DNA from: a virus
DNA: 28,066 bases
Virus record (IMG/VR): IMGVR_UViG_3300046011_010856
Coordinates: 1 to 28,066 of that record
Direction: 5' to 3' (one strand)
Below, in pieces: positions 3,006 to 27,192 of the stretch. The translations under genes and the position numbers were made by a program. A model generated the notes under the pieces. That model saw only the letters and a program-made list of their open reading frames with translations. It was not told where the DNA came from and ran no database searches. Each line of letters begins with the position of its first letter. Positions within the stretch are counted from its first letter, which is position 1.

Positions 3006-4736
3006 TTACACAGGGAAAGAAACTCCAGTTGGTAAAATGCTAAAGTTCAAGTAAACAAATTCAGCAGTTTTAGTTGGTTGTAAGTAAATTTGACCTACTA
3101 ATTGGTTTCTATCAATTACATCAGGAGTGTTATTTGATTCATCCATTACTACTTTGAAAGCATACAAACCTTGTCTTTGTTGTACTGATTCCAAATAAGG
3201 GTTAACTTGAGCTAAGAATTGGTTTCTTGTAGCAATTGTGTTTTGTTCAAATACCAAGTTATTAGCAACTTGTGAAATGTAAGATTTAAGAGCAATTAAC
3301 AATCTACGTACATTTACTCTATCAAGAGCAGATGCTTTAGTTTGTAATGTTTTCTGACCATATACTACAGTTCCAGTTCCTGGGAATGTTGCTATTGGGT
3401 TAACTTTGTTTTGGTATAAAGTATCACGGTTAGTTTGAGTTAATTTCTTTTCAGCTCTTACTACTGTGCTTAATCCACCTCTGTTAATACCAGCTGGAGC
3501 AAACCAAGGCTCACTTACTGAATCATTGTAAGCATAAACACCAGCTACCATAGTTGAAGCAGGTACCCATACTAATTGAGCAGAATCAGGATCAATTGTT
3601 TGAACCCAAGGCCAATAAGCAGCAGCATATGAAGTATTTTTAGCATTTGCTTGAGTTGTTACTGTTGTAATACTTGAGCTAAATGGTACTAAATCATTTA
3701 CAAAAATATTATCACCTCTGTTTTCAGTATTAGAAATAATTGAAGTTACTTGAGAAGAACCAATTGGTGCTTCAGAAGCAAACAAACCAGGAGCAATTAA
3801 AGCATTGAATCTGTAATCATCTTGATTTGATAACAAAGCAATCATATTATTATAATCACTTCCTGTTAAACCTTGAGTATTTGTTACACCAGAAATAATA
3901 TTGTTATAATATTTAGCATTTCCTCCAAATAAATTACCTGTTGCTCCACCAAATGAACCACTAGCTGCTACTGGAATTGAACCTGTAAAAGAAGATTTTG
4001 CTGTACCATTATTATCAAAATAGAATGGGGTTGGAGTTAATACTGAAGATACATAAACATATCTTGAAGCATTTGGATAAGTTCCATTAACTACAATTTG
4101 ATTATCTGTAGAATCGTACTGTCTATATTGATCACCAATTACTTTAGCTACATAATTTGGAGCTGTTGGATCCATTGATAAGTTAGTCCAAGCTTCTAAT
4201 ACAGTTGGAGTAGTAGTGGTATCATCACCTTGTCTAATTAATAATGAGAATGTACCAGATGCTGTATCTGCATTAGTAATTTGCCATCTAATGTTATCAG
4301 ATGAACCTGATGCTAAAGTTCCATTAGTTCCTAAACTGCTTGTACTATTCATAATGGCACCTTGTGAAATAGTGGCAAATCTAACTGATTCTGAAGTGTT
4401 AGAATTTAGAATAGGAGTACCTTGAGAACCAGAGGTAGTAGCTGATGTGAATGAACCACTTTTAACTCTTGCTACTAATAATGTTTCACCTCCATTAGCA
4501 AAATAGTTATAAGCTGCTATTGAAGTAAAATAAGTGTAAACATTACTTGCACTTAAAAAGGTAGTACCGAATTTATTTTGATAGTCACTGTATGAAGTAA
4601 CAACGGTAGGAATTTCTACTGGACCTTTAACAGTAGGACCAATAATAGCAGCTCCTACTACTACTGGTTGTTGAGTAATAAACGATTGATCATTTTCAAT
4701 CGCTAATACGCCAGGGGATATTAATGTTTCTGCCAT
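3006..4736 (-). CDS. 18: contractile tail sheath protein (T4 gp18-like)
   Basis: A 576-residue protein (T4 gp18 is 659). The N terminus, MAETLISPGVLAIENDQSFI followed by Q-P-V-V-V-G-A-A-I-I-G-P-T-x-K-G-P, is the classic sheath start. The C-terminal part has the conserved V-N-V-R-R-L-L-I-A-L-K (about 475-485), a Y-L-x-x-V-Q-x-R-x-G-L-Y-A-F-K-V-V-M-D block (about 512-530), and an ending in which sheath subunits exchange strands (AEFVYLNFSILPTG). The middle (about 100-270) is Ser/Thr/Asn-rich and unlike T4, probably surface domains. The start at 4736 is set by the conserved N terminus; upstream is TTTTAAAAC with no Shine-Dalgarno sequence. The next gene on the transcript is the tube gene, as in T4. 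Confidence 0.96.
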   Translation of the reverse strand: MAETLISPGVLAIENDQSFITQQPVVVGAAIIGPTVKGPVEIPTVVTSYSDYQNKFGTTFLSASNVYTYFTSIAAYNYFANGGETLLVARVKSGSFTSATTSGSQGTPILNSNTSESVRFATISQGAIMNSTSSLGTNGTLASGSSDNIRWQITNADTASGTFSLLIRQGDDTTTTPTVLEAWTNLSMDPTAPNYVAKVIGDQYRQYDSTDNQIVVNGTYPNASRYVYVSSVLTPTPFYFDNNGTAKSSFTGSIPVAASGSFGGATGNLFGGNAKYYNNIISGVTNTQGLTGSDYNNMIALLSNQDDYRFNALIAPGLFASEAPIGSSQVTSIISNTENRGDNIFVNDLVPFSSSITTVTTQANAKNTSYAAAYWPWVQTIDPDSAQLVWVPASTMVAGVYAYNDSVSEPWFAPAGINRGGLSTVVRAEKKLTQTNRDTLYQNKVNPIATFPGTGTVVYGQKTLQTKASALDRVNVRRLLIALKSYISQVANNLVFEQNTIATRNQFLAQVNPYLESVQQRQGLYAFKVVMDESNNTPDVIDRNQLVGQIYLQPTKTAEFVYLNFSILPTGVSFPV

Positions 4737-9067: not shown

Positions 9068-9077
9068 TTATAAATAT
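9068..9077 (-). promoter_or_regulatory. late-type promoter motif for large fibre gene
   Basis: The coding strand reads ATATTTATAATCAATG, with the core exactly four bases before the ATG at 9064. Confidence 0.65.
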
Positions 9078-12403: not shown

Positions 12404-12413
12404 TTATAAATAT
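12404..12413 (-). promoter_or_regulatory. late-type promoter motif for fibre gene
   Basis: The coding strand reads ATATTTATAACAAATG. The core ends exactly four bases before the ATG at 12400. Confidence 0.65.
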
Positions 12414-15594: not shown

Positions 15595-15604
15595 TTATAA
15601 ATAT
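15595..15604 (-). promoter_or_regulatory. late-type promoter motif for the long fibre gene
   Basis: The coding strand reads TAATATTTATAATAAATG: the stop codon of the gene before, the core, then the ATG at 15591 four bases after the core. ATTTAT-A-ATAAAT is a perfect inverted repeat here. Confidence 0.65.
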
Positions 15605-16859: not shown

Positions 16860-16869
16860 TTATAAATAA
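16860..16869 (-). promoter_or_regulatory. late-type promoter motif
   Basis: The coding strand reads TTATTTATAATAAATG. The core is 16861-16868, four bases before the ATG at 16856. Confidence 0.6.
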
Positions 16870-20395: not shown

Positions 20396-21133
20396 CTATT
20401 TTTTAGAATTTCCGTTTGTATTAGAACTACCTAAACTAAATCCTTGTTCATAAGCATCATTGTACAGATTAATTAAATCTTCTACAATAGGATCTCTATG
20501 GTTTTGTTTTAAAGAAATAGCACATAGGTTTTTTATTTTTTTAGCTGCAGCATATAAAAATTTAAATCCAGAATCTCGTTTTTGTTTTAAATCTACTTGA
20601 GCATCATCTCCGCAAATAATCATTTTAGATCCTTTACCAATACGAGTAACAATCATTTCCATTTGTTCATGTGTTACATTTTGGGCTTCATCTACAATTA
20701 CTACAGAATTTACAAATGTTCTACCTCTCATAAATGATACAGGAACAATCTCTATTTGACCATCATTTATACATTTTTCTACTTTTTCTTTATCATAAAG
20801 TAAATACATGTTTTGATAAATAGGTTGAACCCAAGGATCCATTTTTTCCCTTAAATCACCTGGTAGAAATCCAATTTCCTCTTTTGATACAGTTGGGCGA
20901 GTAATGATTACTTTTTCAACCTCTCTCATAAACAAACGTTCTAAACCAATTTGACAAGCCAATAATGTTTTACCAGAACCTGCCGCACCTGATAATAATG
21001 TAATTGTATTATCTAGTATTTTTGATTTAGCCTCTTTTTGTTCCTCATTTAATTGGATTTTAAATTTAATAGGATTTTTTGGCTTACGCTTTTCTTTGAA
21101 GACTTCGTCTTCATGATTTAGTTGAATATTCAT
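20396..21133 (-). CDS. phoH: PhoH-like ATPase
   Basis: A 245-residue P-loop protein of the PhoH family. Walker A is GAAGSGKT (49-56), followed by the PhoH hallmark T-R-P-x-V (78-82) and G-F-L-P-G-D-L-x-E-K (88-97); Walker B is VVIVDEAQN (144-152); further family features are M-I-I-C-G-D-D-A-Q-V-D and the Q-N-H-R-D (sensor-like) near 215-219. It lacks extra nuclease (PIN) or RNA-binding domains, like most phage copies. PhoH proteins are common in marine phages; the role in infection is unclear (RNA metabolism or phosphate stress have been proposed). It overlaps the preceding gene by 23 bases, so the two are probably coupled. The start at 21133 needs this overlap. Confidence 0.95.
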   Translation of the reverse strand: MNIQLNHEDEVFKEKRKPKNPIKFKIQLNEEQKEAKSKILDNTITLLSGAAGSGKTLLACQIGLERLFMREVEKVIITRPTVSKEEIGFLPGDLREKMDPWVQPIYQNMYLLYDKEKVEKCINDGQIEIVPVSFMRGRTFVNSVVIVDEAQNVTHEQMEMIVTRIGKGSKMIICGDDAQVDLKQKRDSGFKFLYAAAKKIKNLCAISLKQNHRDPIVEDLINLYNDAYEQGFSLGSSNTNGNSKK

Positions 21134-21848
21134 TAAAATTAATTTTTACTAACGCATCAATACCAGCATTTACATGCATGGCATCTTCTAAACATAACTC
21201 GAAATCATATCTATTATCTAATGGTAACACTAAATCTACTTGTGAACCCCATCTAATTAAAGAAAATCTTTCATTTTGAGCAAAAATATCGTTTTGGTCC
21301 ATAGTAAATGGAGCAATTACATTTACATCTTCATCTGCAATTTGGATTAAATAATAAGTATAATCTAAAGATGGTGAATAAATTTTATTCCACATACGTT
21401 CATTATACTTTAAATATTCCATATTTGCAGGATTAATTTTTTTATTTAAAATATCTTTTTCAACCGCCAACATGGGTTTATTTGTCGATTGAATCGCGTC
21501 TAACGGTTTATATGATAACATACCTCCATAGGGTATGCGATTGATGTGAACATCATAAAATGACATAAATATACCAATAACTAACGATGGTTTATTATAG
21601 TCCTCATCACCCATAACATCCTGGAGAGTGTAATTTATACCTTTAATTTCAACTACTGGTTCAGTAGGATCTTTAATAAATTTTTGGTATAAAATAGTTC
21701 CATCAGCTGGTGAATAAAAATGTTCATGATCAATATAATTTGGACGAATTGGATCTCTAAAGAAAAATACATTAGATAATTCGCCTACAGGCATTTTCTG
21801 AAGTTGTTTTACTTCAGTTCCTAACCATTCTTGTAATGTTTGTGCCAT
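21111..21848 (-). CDS. phosphatidylserine decarboxylase-like pyruvoyl enzyme
   Basis: A 245-residue protein with the phosphatidylserine decarboxylase (PSD) signatures in order: S-P-A-D-G (46-50), M-S-F-Y-D-V-H-I-N-R-I-P (95-106), a central beta region and W-G-S-Q-V-D-L-V-L-P (200-209). In E. coli PSD the triad is Asp, His and the Ser of LGST, where self-cleavage makes the pyruvoyl group; D49, H101 and S202 (Gly201-Ser202) fit those places. PSD turns phosphatidylserine into phosphatidylethanolamine. The usual T after GS is Q here. It is shorter than E. coli PSD (322), with no membrane-binding N-terminal helix evident. Its ATG shares one base with the previous stop (TAATG). A related decarboxylase with another substrate is possible. 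Confidence 0.85.
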   Translation of the reverse strand: MAQTLQEWLGTEVKQLQKMPVGELSNVFFFRDPIRPNYIDHEHFYSPADGTILYQKFIKDPTEPVVEIKGINYTLQDVMGDEDYNKPSLVIGIFMSFYDVHINRIPYGGMLSYKPLDAIQSTNKPMLAVEKDILNKKINPANMEYLKYNERMWNKIYSPSLDYTYYLIQIADEDVNVIAPFTMDQNDIFAQNERFSLIRWGSQVDLVLPLDNRYDFELCLEDAMHVNAGIDALVKINFNEYSTKS

Positions 21849-22762
21849 TATAGTAATGTTTTATTATGATCAACTCTGTTCAAATGCATCATCATACAAG
21901 ACAGCATAGCACCTGATTTCATATACTCAGATAAATTAAATATAACCGGTTCCATACCTGCATCGCCACAAATTTTTTCTAGTGTTTTAAGTTTGTTTAC
22001 TTCACCTTCATAGTATTCATGACTTTTCTTTAATTCAGAAATGTTAGAGGCACATAAAACCATGTTACCCATTCTTACAGAATTGGTTAATCCACATAAA
22101 GCATTTTCAACATCAATATCAATGATTTCTGTTTCTTTTTCAATCATTTGTAATTCTTCTTCATCAAATAATTCAGTACAAATTAATGTTTGTTCTGTAT
22201 TTAAAGCAAATATTGAACAATCTAAATGGTAAAGATATTCATCAACCATAGCTACTTTAATAATATCCATGTTGTATTGTTCTTCCATCCATTCATAAGC
22301 TTTGATGTTTGAACGAATACCATAACCACCAATGTATTTGTTACCGTAAAGATATTTCAAATCAGCCTCACCTTCCCATTTATATGGAGAAATAGCTGTT
22401 TTATAACCCATTTGATTAAAATATTTTTCACCAACCAATTCTTCACCTTTACGAGGATCAGAAGTAAAATTAGATAAAATAATGTGATTTTCGTTTTTGA
22501 TATGAGGTAAATAAATACCTAAATTAGCCACATAAACCTGATCTTGAAAATTACCTTCAGAAGGTAATAGATTAACTAAAGCACCTCCAGCAACAAAATT
22601 ATACAAATCCATAAATTGTTTGTATGCTTTGGGTTTATTAATTGATAATTCTTCATCGGTTAATTCTTGCATCCAAATATTATTTGGATCTTCTGTAGAT
22701 AAAGTAAATGGGAAATTCATTACATAACTTTGAACAGGCAACTGACTTGGTGTTTGTTTCAT
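21848..22762 (-). CDS. guanidine-modifying enzyme, DDAH / arginine deiminase-like
   Basis: A 304-residue protein with the layout of the dimethylargininase/amidinotransferase fold. Visible motifs: F-Q-D-Q-V-Y-V-A-N-L-G (72-82; family form xxDxVFxANxG), W-E-G-E-A-D (129-134; family FEGxGD), Y-H-L-D (178-181) and S-G-A-M-L-S-C (283-289). In the superfamily an acidic residue binds the guanidine group, His activates, and the near-terminal Cys forms the covalent intermediate; D134, H179/D181 and C289 fit. Known members hydrolyse methylarginines, arginine or agmatine, or transfer amidino groups; which applies here cannot be read from the sequence. It is first of three overlapping genes after the capsid terminator. 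A sigma-70-like candidate promoter is upstream, unlike the late motif of neighbours. Confidence 0.85.
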   Translation of the reverse strand: MKQTPSQLPVQSYVMNFPFTLSTEDPNNIWMQELTDEELSINKPKAYKQFMDLYNFVAGGALVNLLPSEGNFQDQVYVANLGIYLPHIKNENHIILSNFTSDPRKGEELVGEKYFNQMGYKTAISPYKWEGEADLKYLYGNKYIGGYGIRSNIKAYEWMEEQYNMDIIKVAMVDEYLYHLDCSIFALNTEQTLICTELFDEEELQMIEKETEIIDIDVENALCGLTNSVRMGNMVLCASNISELKKSHEYYEGEVNKLKTLEKICGDAGMEPVIFNLSEYMKSGAMLSCMMMHLNRVDHNKTLL

Positions 22763-22786: not shown

Positions 22787-22824
22787 TGTATACATATTAT
22801 ATAGGTCTATACTAGTAACAAAAA
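22787..22824 (-). promoter_or_regulatory. candidate promoter for the enzyme operon, with TGTATACA palindrome
   Basis: The coding strand has TATAAT (22801-22796) and, 17 bases upstream, TTTTTG (22824-22819), a weak -35 inside the capsid terminator's T tract. Just downstream is ATATGTATACA (22797-22787), which also occurs before the scaffold gene. The late-type core is not present here, so this unit may follow a different time course. Confidence 0.45.
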
Positions 22825-22843
22825 GCCCCGATTTCTCGGGGCT
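22820..22843 (-). terminator. strong rho-independent terminator after major capsid gene
   Basis: An 8-bp stem, AGCCCCGA (22824-22831) with TCGGGGCT (22836-22843), closes a loop reading GAAA on the coding strand, followed by TTTTTG. It is 26 bases after the capsid stop codon. Confidence 0.92.
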
Positions 22844-22868: not shown

Positions 22869-24629
22869 TTAGATAGTATTTAAACCACTTACATAAATTT
22901 TTCCATAAAACTCTGGACGCAACATCTTCTTAGCGTAACGAGTCAACAGACCTTTTCTTGGAGTAAAGGTTTCAGGATCGTACACTAGAGGAGTCATAAT
23001 CAATGGAATGTATGGAGAGAATACAGCACCTGTTTCCAAGAACTGAGAACCTCTGTAACCCATTAAGATTAAGTTTTCGGTCATGTATGGATTTTTGTAA
23101 ACTTTGTAACGACCGTTTACTGAACCAATTTTCTGTACACCGAAAGCGTATTCCATTTGATCAGCTTCGCCATTGCTAGTAGAAGCAAATCCTGGGATTG
23201 ATTCTAAGATAGTAGCGATTGTTGGAGAAGTTACTAAGAAGTTAGCACCACCTCTTAAAGTCAACTGATGGATCTTGTTAGATACTTTTTGGATTTTAGT
23301 ACCTAAGGTTTGGAACCATTGACCTTGAGTGTTGTAGAAAGCTGAAGAGTTAGTAACTAAAGTAGATCCGTTATAAACTTGGTTGTTAATAGCTGACCAA
23401 TATTCAGTAGCTGCAGCAGCATCTTCAATCAACATATCCAAGATTTCCAAATCAATTTCCATTGAAATGTACTCACTCATGATGTTAGTCAATTCAGCTT
23501 CAGCATCAATGTTTTGGTAAGCAGCTAAGTCTTGAGCAAATTCAGGAGTCCATACTGCTTTCAATTTCTTGGTTTTAGCAGTGATAGGTTGTGATTGCAT
23601 TCTAACGTTGATCTCAGGGATAACGATTTGAGTAGAACTCGCAGCGTTAGGTACTGAGAACGCACCATCAGCTTCAAAATCACCACGACCTGATTGGTTA
23701 CCACCTATAGCAGAAGCTTGGTTGTTACCTGAAGTTACGTTGATACCATCTTGAGAAGTTGATTTTTGGTAGAATACAGTAACGTTAGCTGCTGGAGCAC
23801 CTGAGAATGCTGTAGTTGAACCTGTATAGAAGAAAGCAATAGTACCTGCTGTGTAGTTGTAAGTAGTAAATTGTGATAATAAGTTAGCAGGAGCAAATCC
23901 ACTACCACTCAATACAAATCCACGAACTGCATCTTGATCAAATGAAGGTAAGAATGAAGCAGTAGCAACTGTTACTTTGTAAATACCATTAGCTAATACA
24001 GAAGCAGAATAATCAGAATCAAAATCTAATTCAGCCCAAGAAGCTGTAACTACTGAACCTGTACCTGCTGCTAGTACTGGAGTAGTTCCACCAGCACTTG
24101 AACCTGATACCCAAACAGAAGCTGAGAATTGGTTAGTAGCGTAAGTGAAACGACCTGAAGGACCACCATATAAACCACCTTCAGCAGCTGGAGTAGAGAA
24201 TGGGAACTGAGAAGCAGTGTTTCTGTTACCATATAAAGATGAACCATCCCTGAAAGGGGTCTTAGAGTTACCATATTGGAAATCCAAGAAGAACACTAGA
24301 CCTGAAGGCATGTTCATTGGTTGAACTGAAACGAATTCTTTAGCTACGATAGTTCCGAATACTTTACGAACTAAAGGCAAAGCAATACCAGCCCAGTTTT
24401 CACCTTGACCGCCTGATGTGAAAGAAGAGTTAGAGGCAATAGTATTAGTTTCAGTTACCAACTGTTTAGCTTGGTTTTCTAATAAGATAGACATGTTGTT
24501 TTTGTCAACTTCTACTAATCCTTCTAACAATCCTGTTTTTGTCCATTTACTGGACAATTTAGCAGCATCGCTCTGAAGTGACTTCCAAGAGCCAGCTGCG
24601 CTTTCTAATAATTGTTGTACGTGTGACAT
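22869..24629 (-). CDS. 23: major capsid protein (T4 gp23-like)
   Basis: A 586-residue protein (T4 gp23 precursor 521). The start MSHVQQLLESAAGSWKSLQS and the block P-L-V-R-K-V-F-G (85-92), Q-P-M-N-M-P-S-G (103-110), L-V-F-F-L-D-F (111-117) are diagnostic of gp23-type HK97-fold capsid proteins. The C-terminal half keeps the family's order (W-T-P-E-F-A-Q-D-L-A-A-Y, L-E-I-L-D-M-L, G-A-N-F-L-V-T-S-P, near-terminal P-R-K-G-L-L-T-R-Y-A-K-K). An insertion of Gly/Ser/Ala/Thr-rich sequence at about 125-330 makes it longer than T4. The prohead protease cleaves after (I/L)-x-E; candidate sites end at E36, E40 and E51. It is preceded by its scaffold and followed by a strong terminator. Confidence 0.97.
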   Translation of the reverse strand: MSHVQQLLESAAGSWKSLQSDAAKLSSKWTKTGLLEGLVEVDKNNMSILLENQAKQLVTETNTIASNSSFTSGGQGENWAGIALPLVRKVFGTIVAKEFVSVQPMNMPSGLVFFLDFQYGNSKTPFRDGSSLYGNRNTASQFPFSTPAAEGGLYGGPSGRFTYATNQFSASVWVSGSSAGGTTPVLAAGTGSVVTASWAELDFDSDYSASVLANGIYKVTVATASFLPSFDQDAVRGFVLSGSGFAPANLLSQFTTYNYTAGTIAFFYTGSTTAFSGAPAANVTVFYQKSTSQDGINVTSGNNQASAIGGNQSGRGDFEADGAFSVPNAASSTQIVIPEINVRMQSQPITAKTKKLKAVWTPEFAQDLAAYQNIDAEAELTNIMSEYISMEIDLEILDMLIEDAAAATEYWSAINNQVYNGSTLVTNSSAFYNTQGQWFQTLGTKIQKVSNKIHQLTLRGGANFLVTSPTIATILESIPGFASTSNGEADQMEYAFGVQKIGSVNGRYKVYKNPYMTENLILMGYRGSQFLETGAVFSPYIPLIMTPLVYDPETFTPRKGLLTRYAKKMLRPEFYGKIYVSGLNTI

Positions 24630-27182: not shown

Positions 27183-27192
27183 TTATAAATAT
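27183..27192 (-). promoter_or_regulatory. late-type promoter motif
   Basis: The coding strand reads TAATATTTATAACAAATG: the stop codon of the gene before, the core, and ATG at 27179 four bases later. The arrangement is the same as at 15595-15604. Confidence 0.65.

Follow-up and report, generated by a model that had tools for sequence, protein, structure and literature searches.

In Escherichia coli phosphatidylserine decarboxylase (PSD), the Asp, His and Ser residues of interest here are D90, H144 and S254 (PMC7952604). The cleavage motif of this enzyme is LGST, with a Thr after the Ser, which is not the state found in short PSDs. PsiD has been described as related to the PSDs (PMC12099186). 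In phages, ornithine decarboxylase (ODC) and arginine decarboxylase (ADC) activities have been reported for relatives of AdoMetDC; in those parts of the study consulted here, phages yielded neither an arginase nor a likely AR-fold ODC, and phosphatidylserine, dihydrolases and Campylobacter go unmentioned (PMC9992855). Viral psd genes have been read in an ocean-virus survey as belonging to phosphatidylethanolamine/phosphatidylserine metabolism (PMC11360552). As for the hydrolysis of arginine, the ArgZ mutants N71S, which traps a reaction intermediate, and C264S are named in PDB titles, and the partner domain of AgrE is, judging from PDB titles and its NCBIfam name, an ornithine-using enzyme.

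The window analysed here, a stretch of 28,066 bases, is an IMG/VR virus record. It carries T4-like genes for gp23, prohead protease, PhoH and tail sheath, along with a weakly matched tail tube gene, so the original prediction of a phage-borne PSD-like protein holds as far as its carrier is concerned. The gene in question, called PSD2 below, lies in the following context:

22869..24629, minus strand: gp23 major capsid protein gene, upstream neighbour of the pair (Pfam Gp23, 1.4e-75)
22820..22843, minus strand: terminator-like hairpin and T run, AGCCCCGA...TCGGGGCTTTTT, separating the gp23 gene from the pair (sequence read by eye)
21848..22762, minus strand: ArgZ-type guanidino-group hydrolase, 304 aa, PHROG 12759, proposed arginine dihydrolase (phmmer, profile and model)
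21846..21850, minus strand: TAATG stop/start overlap, ArgZ-type gene stop and PSD2 start (sequence read)
21111..21848, minus strand: PSD2, PSD-family protein, 245 aa, PHROG 12670 (Pfam, PHROG, invariant residues and model)
21704-21702, minus strand: D49 codon of PSD2 (SPADG)
21548-21546, minus strand: H101 codon of PSD2 (DVHINR)
21245-21243, minus strand: codon of the predicted cleavage Ser202 of PSD2 (WGSQ)
20396..21133, minus strand: PhoH-like ATPase gene (Pfam PhoH, 1.2e-64)
9069-9076, 12405-12412, 15596-15603, 16861-16868 and 27184-27191: TATTTATA sites 4 bases before starts

The reading frames of the ArgZ-type gene and PSD2 share base 21848, where the TAA stop of the former and the ATG of the latter make up TAATG, and the two genes could possibly be translationally coupled. 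The start of the PhoH-like gene overlaps the 3' end of PSD2 by 23 bases, and this gene also adjoins in related contigs. The location of the pair, amid genes for capsid and tail, suggests that it is expressed late. The five listed TATTTATA sites (TATAAATA on the plus strand) stand exactly 4 bases before the start codons of minus-strand genes; the same string is found 9-22 bases ahead of four further minus-strand genes, and TATAAATA matches the window 15 times versus 6.1 expected. It may represent a late-promoter-like element or a start-site signal giving leaderless messages. Between 11147 and 15852 the window encodes fibre-like proteins, with a repeated SFTGSFTGSLLGTASYA-type unit common to at least three ORFs. 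A close phage relative (L137) was found on a contig binned as Flavobacteriales, which hints at a host among the Bacteroidota.

PSD2 begins with an ATG and ends with a stop codon. The sole Pfam family that it matches is PF02666 (PS_Dcarbxylase; E 6.5e-24, 85.1 bits for a cut-off of 22), the Pfam search giving no match to AdoMetDC (PF02675), and its PHROG match (12670, 5e-44) is to a group of unknown function. Its assignment to the PSD family was therefore correct, as was the placing of D49, H101 and S202 in the triad: all three are invariant in a 60-row alignment, along with the remainder of P47-A48-D49-G50 and with N103, R104 and G201. The best Foldseek match of the structure model (pLDDT 81, pTM 0.83) is E. 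coli PSD; the part modelled with the lowest confidence (pLDDT about 45) is the N123-E130 loop and its flank. The top VIA-align rows are EIIA-Glc-like domains (Z 12.0 and 11.8), which we read as a probable sharing of the core fold, and the model aligns with PSD at Z 11.6, with PsiD at 10.0 and with an arginine decarboxylase of Aspergillus oryzae (9jer) at 9.3.

Within this family, PSD2 belongs to a subfamily of its own. It misses the cut-offs of all NCBIfam PSD and archaetidylserine decarboxylase models (best score 72.5 bits, cut-off 183), and in a tree of 49 rows, built from a 76-row set with phage rows thinned to 19 and L262 left out, the subfamily falls into a single clade (99/99) whose branch measures 2.47 changes per column. 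Rows from T4-like phages group together (88/90) next to bacterial rows, with ordinary PSDs outside the clade. Because of long branches, it is uncertain where exactly the rows of the Campylobacter and Bacteroides phages belong.

The subfamily also has a residue signature, seen when 59 of its rows are compared with 43 canonical rows matching the short-PSD profile, two of which were set aside as 'other'; at least one gene (L257 = L296) enters the comparison twice. Asp172 occurs in 59/59 subfamily rows versus 5/41 short PSD-family rows, which otherwise have Gly; Asp174 (57/59) and Asp231 (58/59) stand where short PSDs mostly have Val and Thr, respectively; Gln203, directly after the cleavage Ser, is found in 58/59 versus 5/41; and the loop with Asn123, Met126 and Glu130 is present in 59/59 and corresponds to a gap in 39/41 short PSDs. 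The loss of a positive charge beside the pyruvoyl Ser and the gain of acidic residues are what one would expect if the substrate had changed from an anionic head group, phosphoserine, to an amino acid with a positive charge, and we infer that the acidic gains and Gln203 contact the substrate. The original prediction had remarked on two oddities. The Gln in place of Thr is less odd than it seemed, as this position holds Arg in 34, Gln in five and Cys in two of the 41 short bacterial rows. The missing membrane-anchor-like N-terminus does stand as unusual: a hydrophobic N-terminal stretch (KD >= 1.6) is present in 0/59 subfamily rows versus 22/32 short PSDs (32 of the 43 canonical rows could be scored, 11 being without the motif or too short), in keeping with the soluble form that had been proposed.

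Three candidate marks were dropped. 'GSQ' is not unique to the subfamily, as five PSD relatives outside the clade (L298, L299, L305, L323 and L324) have GSQ along with an Asp at the 172 position, and the changes Tyr137-to-Phe and His147-to-Arg, considered as marks of a new substrate, are both common to short PSDs. The GSQ/Asp172 relatives probably form another branch of the PSD family; the two whose neighbourhoods were read (L326, L327) start with an N-terminal hydrophobic stretch.

An ordinary PSD is generally present besides PSD2: 12 of 13 module genomes contain a further PF02666 gene that scores far better, the thirteenth being an incomplete 1.8-Mb bin (the L140 genome was left out of this count). 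These features argue against PSD2 being the housekeeping PSD of the cell. The suggestion that it changes phosphatidylethanolamine supply accordingly fares poorly, given the missed NCBIfam cut-offs, the lack of a hydrophobic N-terminus and the second PSD in 12/13 genomes. Ordinary PSDs were detected in one of 50,697 phage records with a short-PSD query and in seven with a long-PSD query, and several of these records look like host contigs or fragments.

The original prediction missed the partner gene, which lies directly upstream of PSD2 and points to arginine or polyamine metabolism. Its product matches DDAH_eukar weakly in Pfam, and among solved structures gives significant E-values for ArgZ and AgrE only (phmmer 3.9e-14, profile 2.4e-26). 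The AlphaFold model (pLDDT 94.3) aligns with ArgZ (6jv0) at a VIA-align Z of 34.9, with an rmsd of 1.8 over 264 residues; below it come AstB, also a dihydrolase (27.7), followed by DDAH (26.8), then arginine deiminase (about 25) and, last, agmatine deiminases (20-21). Eight residues are invariant in 44/44 ArgZ-type rows (D74, N80, R104, E130, R150, H179, D181 and C289), among which C289 and H179 occupy the catalytic Cys and His positions and N80 that of the dihydrolase Asn (Asn71 in ArgZ, the residue changed in N71S). R104 and R150 are the Arg pair (Arg90 and Arg139 in ArgZ), which we take to bind the substrate carboxylate. The invariance of the Asn and of this carboxylate-type pair favours arginine over agmatine as substrate. 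Since the score against the NCBIfam arginine dihydrolase model NF052232 (80 bits) is far below the cut-off of 450, we label the protein 'ArgZ-type' rather than ArgZ; it scores alike against the dimethylargininase model.

The two genes are almost always found together. Among 50,697 phage records, PSD2-positive records carry the ArgZ-type gene in 45/45 cases and ArgZ-type-positive records carry PSD2 in 45/47, the paired records being Campylobacter Fletchervirus (counts that represent one lineage) and Bacteroides phages. The Campylobacter phage genes are annotated as 'phosphatidylserine decarboxylase' (PSD2) and 'amidinotransferase' (ArgZ-type). They are about 42 kb apart in Fletchervirus NCTC12673, so physical linkage alone does not explain the pairing. 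A first viral scan found both genes in 77/80 contigs, the three misses starting at most 61 bases from a locus end. Three viral scans pooled, whose contigs overlap, gave 200 loci with both genes (ArgZ-PSD order), five with PSD only and one with ArgZ only, all six single-gene loci being cut by an end. Of the 23 loci returned by a genome scan, 14 are bacterial (44-56% identity), eight hold ordinary PSDs (25-33%) and one belongs to a phage (L137). The ArgZ-type gene is present in 14/14 of the bacterial loci (two of them truncated at the end of a contig, another fragmented), in reversed order with PSD2 first. On a Bacteroides-type viral contig (L248), the genes lie on opposite strands. The pair has thus been kept through at least four arrangements.

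In cells the clade is rare, as indicated by wider genome surveys (2/288, 2/396 and 1/200 genomes, index genomes included). In the Verrucomicrobiota, both genes occur in the same 2/288 genomes (at 1e-30), one of them the index genome and the other represented by a contig whose endolysin and dUTPase genes look phage-like. A search of plasmids with the Sulfurimonas PSD2 protein gave no match at 1e-20. On one phage-like contig (L261), an ORF named by eye as glyceraldehyde-3-phosphate-dehydrogenase-like (3305-4306) lies near endolysin, dUTPase and the ArgZ-PSD pair.

The bacterial neighbourhoods have a polyamine-like character. A MATE exporter gene adjoins the pair in 9/14 bacterial loci, and two more loci stop where the pair does. 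The exporter gene shares the strand of the pair in Sulfurimonas and in two Thermoleophilia and is convergent with it in six Verrucomicrobiales (L141, L142, L143, L145, L146 and L149). In the Verrucomicrobiales, the next gene beyond it codes for a solute-binding protein, whose best NCBIfam match, in the one locus scored, is the PotD spermidine/putrescine model (2e-53, under the cut-off). The NCBIfam matches include MATE proteins from natural-product clusters, and no other recurring biosynthetic genes were seen beside the pair in the bacterial loci. Six of seven Verrucomicrobiales genomes were scanned for PF02784 (Orn_Arg_deC_N) and OKR_DC_1. Every PF02784 protein proved to be LysA, which leaves the scan without any AR-fold ODC or ADC, and OKR_DC_1 gave weak matches only, one of them marginally above the cut-off. 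A SpeA-like arginine decarboxylase is encoded in the Sulfurimonas genome as well, and in that organism the module is therefore not just a substitute for a missing enzyme. In 11 module phage records, which may be fragments, we found neither AdoMetDC (PF02675) nor spermidine synthase, AR-fold decarboxylases or OKR_DC_1.

The reading that we favour, with a confidence somewhat above the even mark, is that of a two-gene module, both genes phage-encoded, which takes arginine to ornithine and ornithine to putrescine. It builds on the homology, the soluble form, the subfamily signature, the persistent ArgZ-type pairing and the polyamine-like bacterial neighbours. The ArgZ-type protein (21848-22762) would hydrolyse L-arginine to L-ornithine, as cyanobacterial ArgZ does. 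PSD2 would cleave itself before Ser202 to form a pyruvoyl group, which would make a Schiff base with a free amino acid before decarboxylation. The substrate is most likely ornithine, giving putrescine; its dihydrolase-type fold match makes ornithine the likely product of the ArgZ-type protein, and the ornithine-using partner domain of AgrE fits this choice. The original prediction had allowed for a different substrate, and the separate signature and the arginine-enzyme partner lend support to that part of it. Polyamines are DNA counter-ions in phage heads. Host arginine may thus be turned into putrescine late in infection, as heads fill with DNA in need of counter-ions, the product presumably serving packaging or translation. 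PsiD and the A. oryzae arginine decarboxylase offer precedents, by analogy, for PSD-family enzymes acting on free amino acids, within limits: their fold match is no stronger than that of PSD itself. The MATE and PotD-like neighbours do not tell which amine is involved. More broadly, the chances seem to us evenly balanced that this is a putrescine pathway not described before, in which an arginine dihydrolase works with a PSD-fold pyruvoyl ODC, and that it exists in bacteria from four or more phyla and was acquired by several lineages of phages, namely T4-like phages (hosts probably Bacteroidota), Campylobacter Fletchervirus and Bacteroides phages.

The same two-gene logic and end product would be preserved if arginine were decarboxylated first, with PSD2 making agmatine and the ArgZ-type protein, as dihydrolase or deiminase, converting it to putrescine or N-carbamoylputrescine. 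The solved PSD-fold arginine decarboxylase of A. oryzae (9jer, Z 9.3) speaks for this order. However, agmatine has no carboxylate, and the Arg pair presumed to bind one is invariant in 44/44 ArgZ-type rows, which makes the order less likely; agmatine deiminases are also the weaker fold matches (Z 20-21 versus 34.9 for ArgZ). We regard it as quite unlikely. An unlikely reading, too, is that the pair makes some other arginine-derived molecule, such as a MATE-exported guanidino compound or diamine, or that PSD2 acts on another amino acid, a modified residue or a base. The adjoining MATE genes (9/14 bacterial loci), the natural-product-cluster MATE proteins among the NCBIfam matches and the equal scores of the ArgZ-type protein on the dimethylargininase and arginine dihydrolase models would be compatible with it, but the PotD-like protein next door in the Verrucomicrobiales, the dihydrolase-type fold, which makes ornithine a likely intermediate, and the lack of further recurring biosynthetic genes beside the pair count against it.

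The Campylobacter phage annotation implies yet another role, that of a phospholipid decarboxylase altering host membrane lipids through phosphatidylserine or a related substrate. PF02666 homology, intact D/H/S residues and a best Foldseek match to E. coli PSD are what such an enzyme would have. Yet no subfamily row (0/59) has a hydrophobic N-terminus, all NCBIfam PSD cut-offs are missed, the clade stands apart (99/99, 2.47 changes per column), an ordinary PSD is at hand in 12/13 genomes, and the constant pairing with an arginine enzyme is left unexplained, all of which makes a lipid role very improbable.

Should the route through ornithine prove true, it would add to the folds known for ornithine decarboxylase, be the first phage route making its own ornithine, and give the PSD family a basic-amino-acid decarboxylase branch. 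Campylobacter phages would then be a tractable test of phage-made polyamines. If the module reading holds, PSD2 and ArgZ-type genes, now misnamed or in nameless PHROGs, are polyamine genes rather than lipid genes. The viral psd genes of the ocean survey (PMC11360552) may then need the same check. Among open-licence full texts, we found no paper linking PSD with ornithine decarboxylase, phage or arginine decarboxylase, nor one on the gene pair.

Set beside PSD (PF02666; E. coli 7cnw/6l06; PMC7952604), PSD2 shares homology, fold and the D-H-S residues, and by inference the pyruvoyl mechanism. It differs in its soluble N-terminus, the N123/M126/E130 loop, Asp172/Asp174 and the Gln after the cleavage Ser, and in having a constant arginine-enzyme partner and an ordinary PSD present besides. 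PsiD (L-tryptophan; 8zia, 8x4q) and the A. oryzae arginine decarboxylase (9jer) have in common with the proposed enzyme a PSD-like fold and, according to PDB titles, the use of free amino acids; they are fungal, with chains of 348-381 aa in the PDB, and only 12-13% identical to PSD2 in structural alignment. We know of no dihydrolase partner for either. ArgZ (Sll1336) and AgrE (Alr4995) share with the ArgZ-type protein of the window their fold (Z 34.9) and residues of the Asn71/Arg90/Arg139/His/Cys264 type, whereas the latter stands alone and is about 23% identical to them; its partner is a PSD-family protein rather than the ornithine cyclodeaminase domain of AgrE. As is the case for the AdoMetDC-derived pyruvoyl ODC/ADC of phages (PMC9992855), PSD2 would be a phage pyruvoyl decarboxylase for putrescine or agmatine, but one from an unrelated family, and accompanied here by an enzyme that would form the ornithine.
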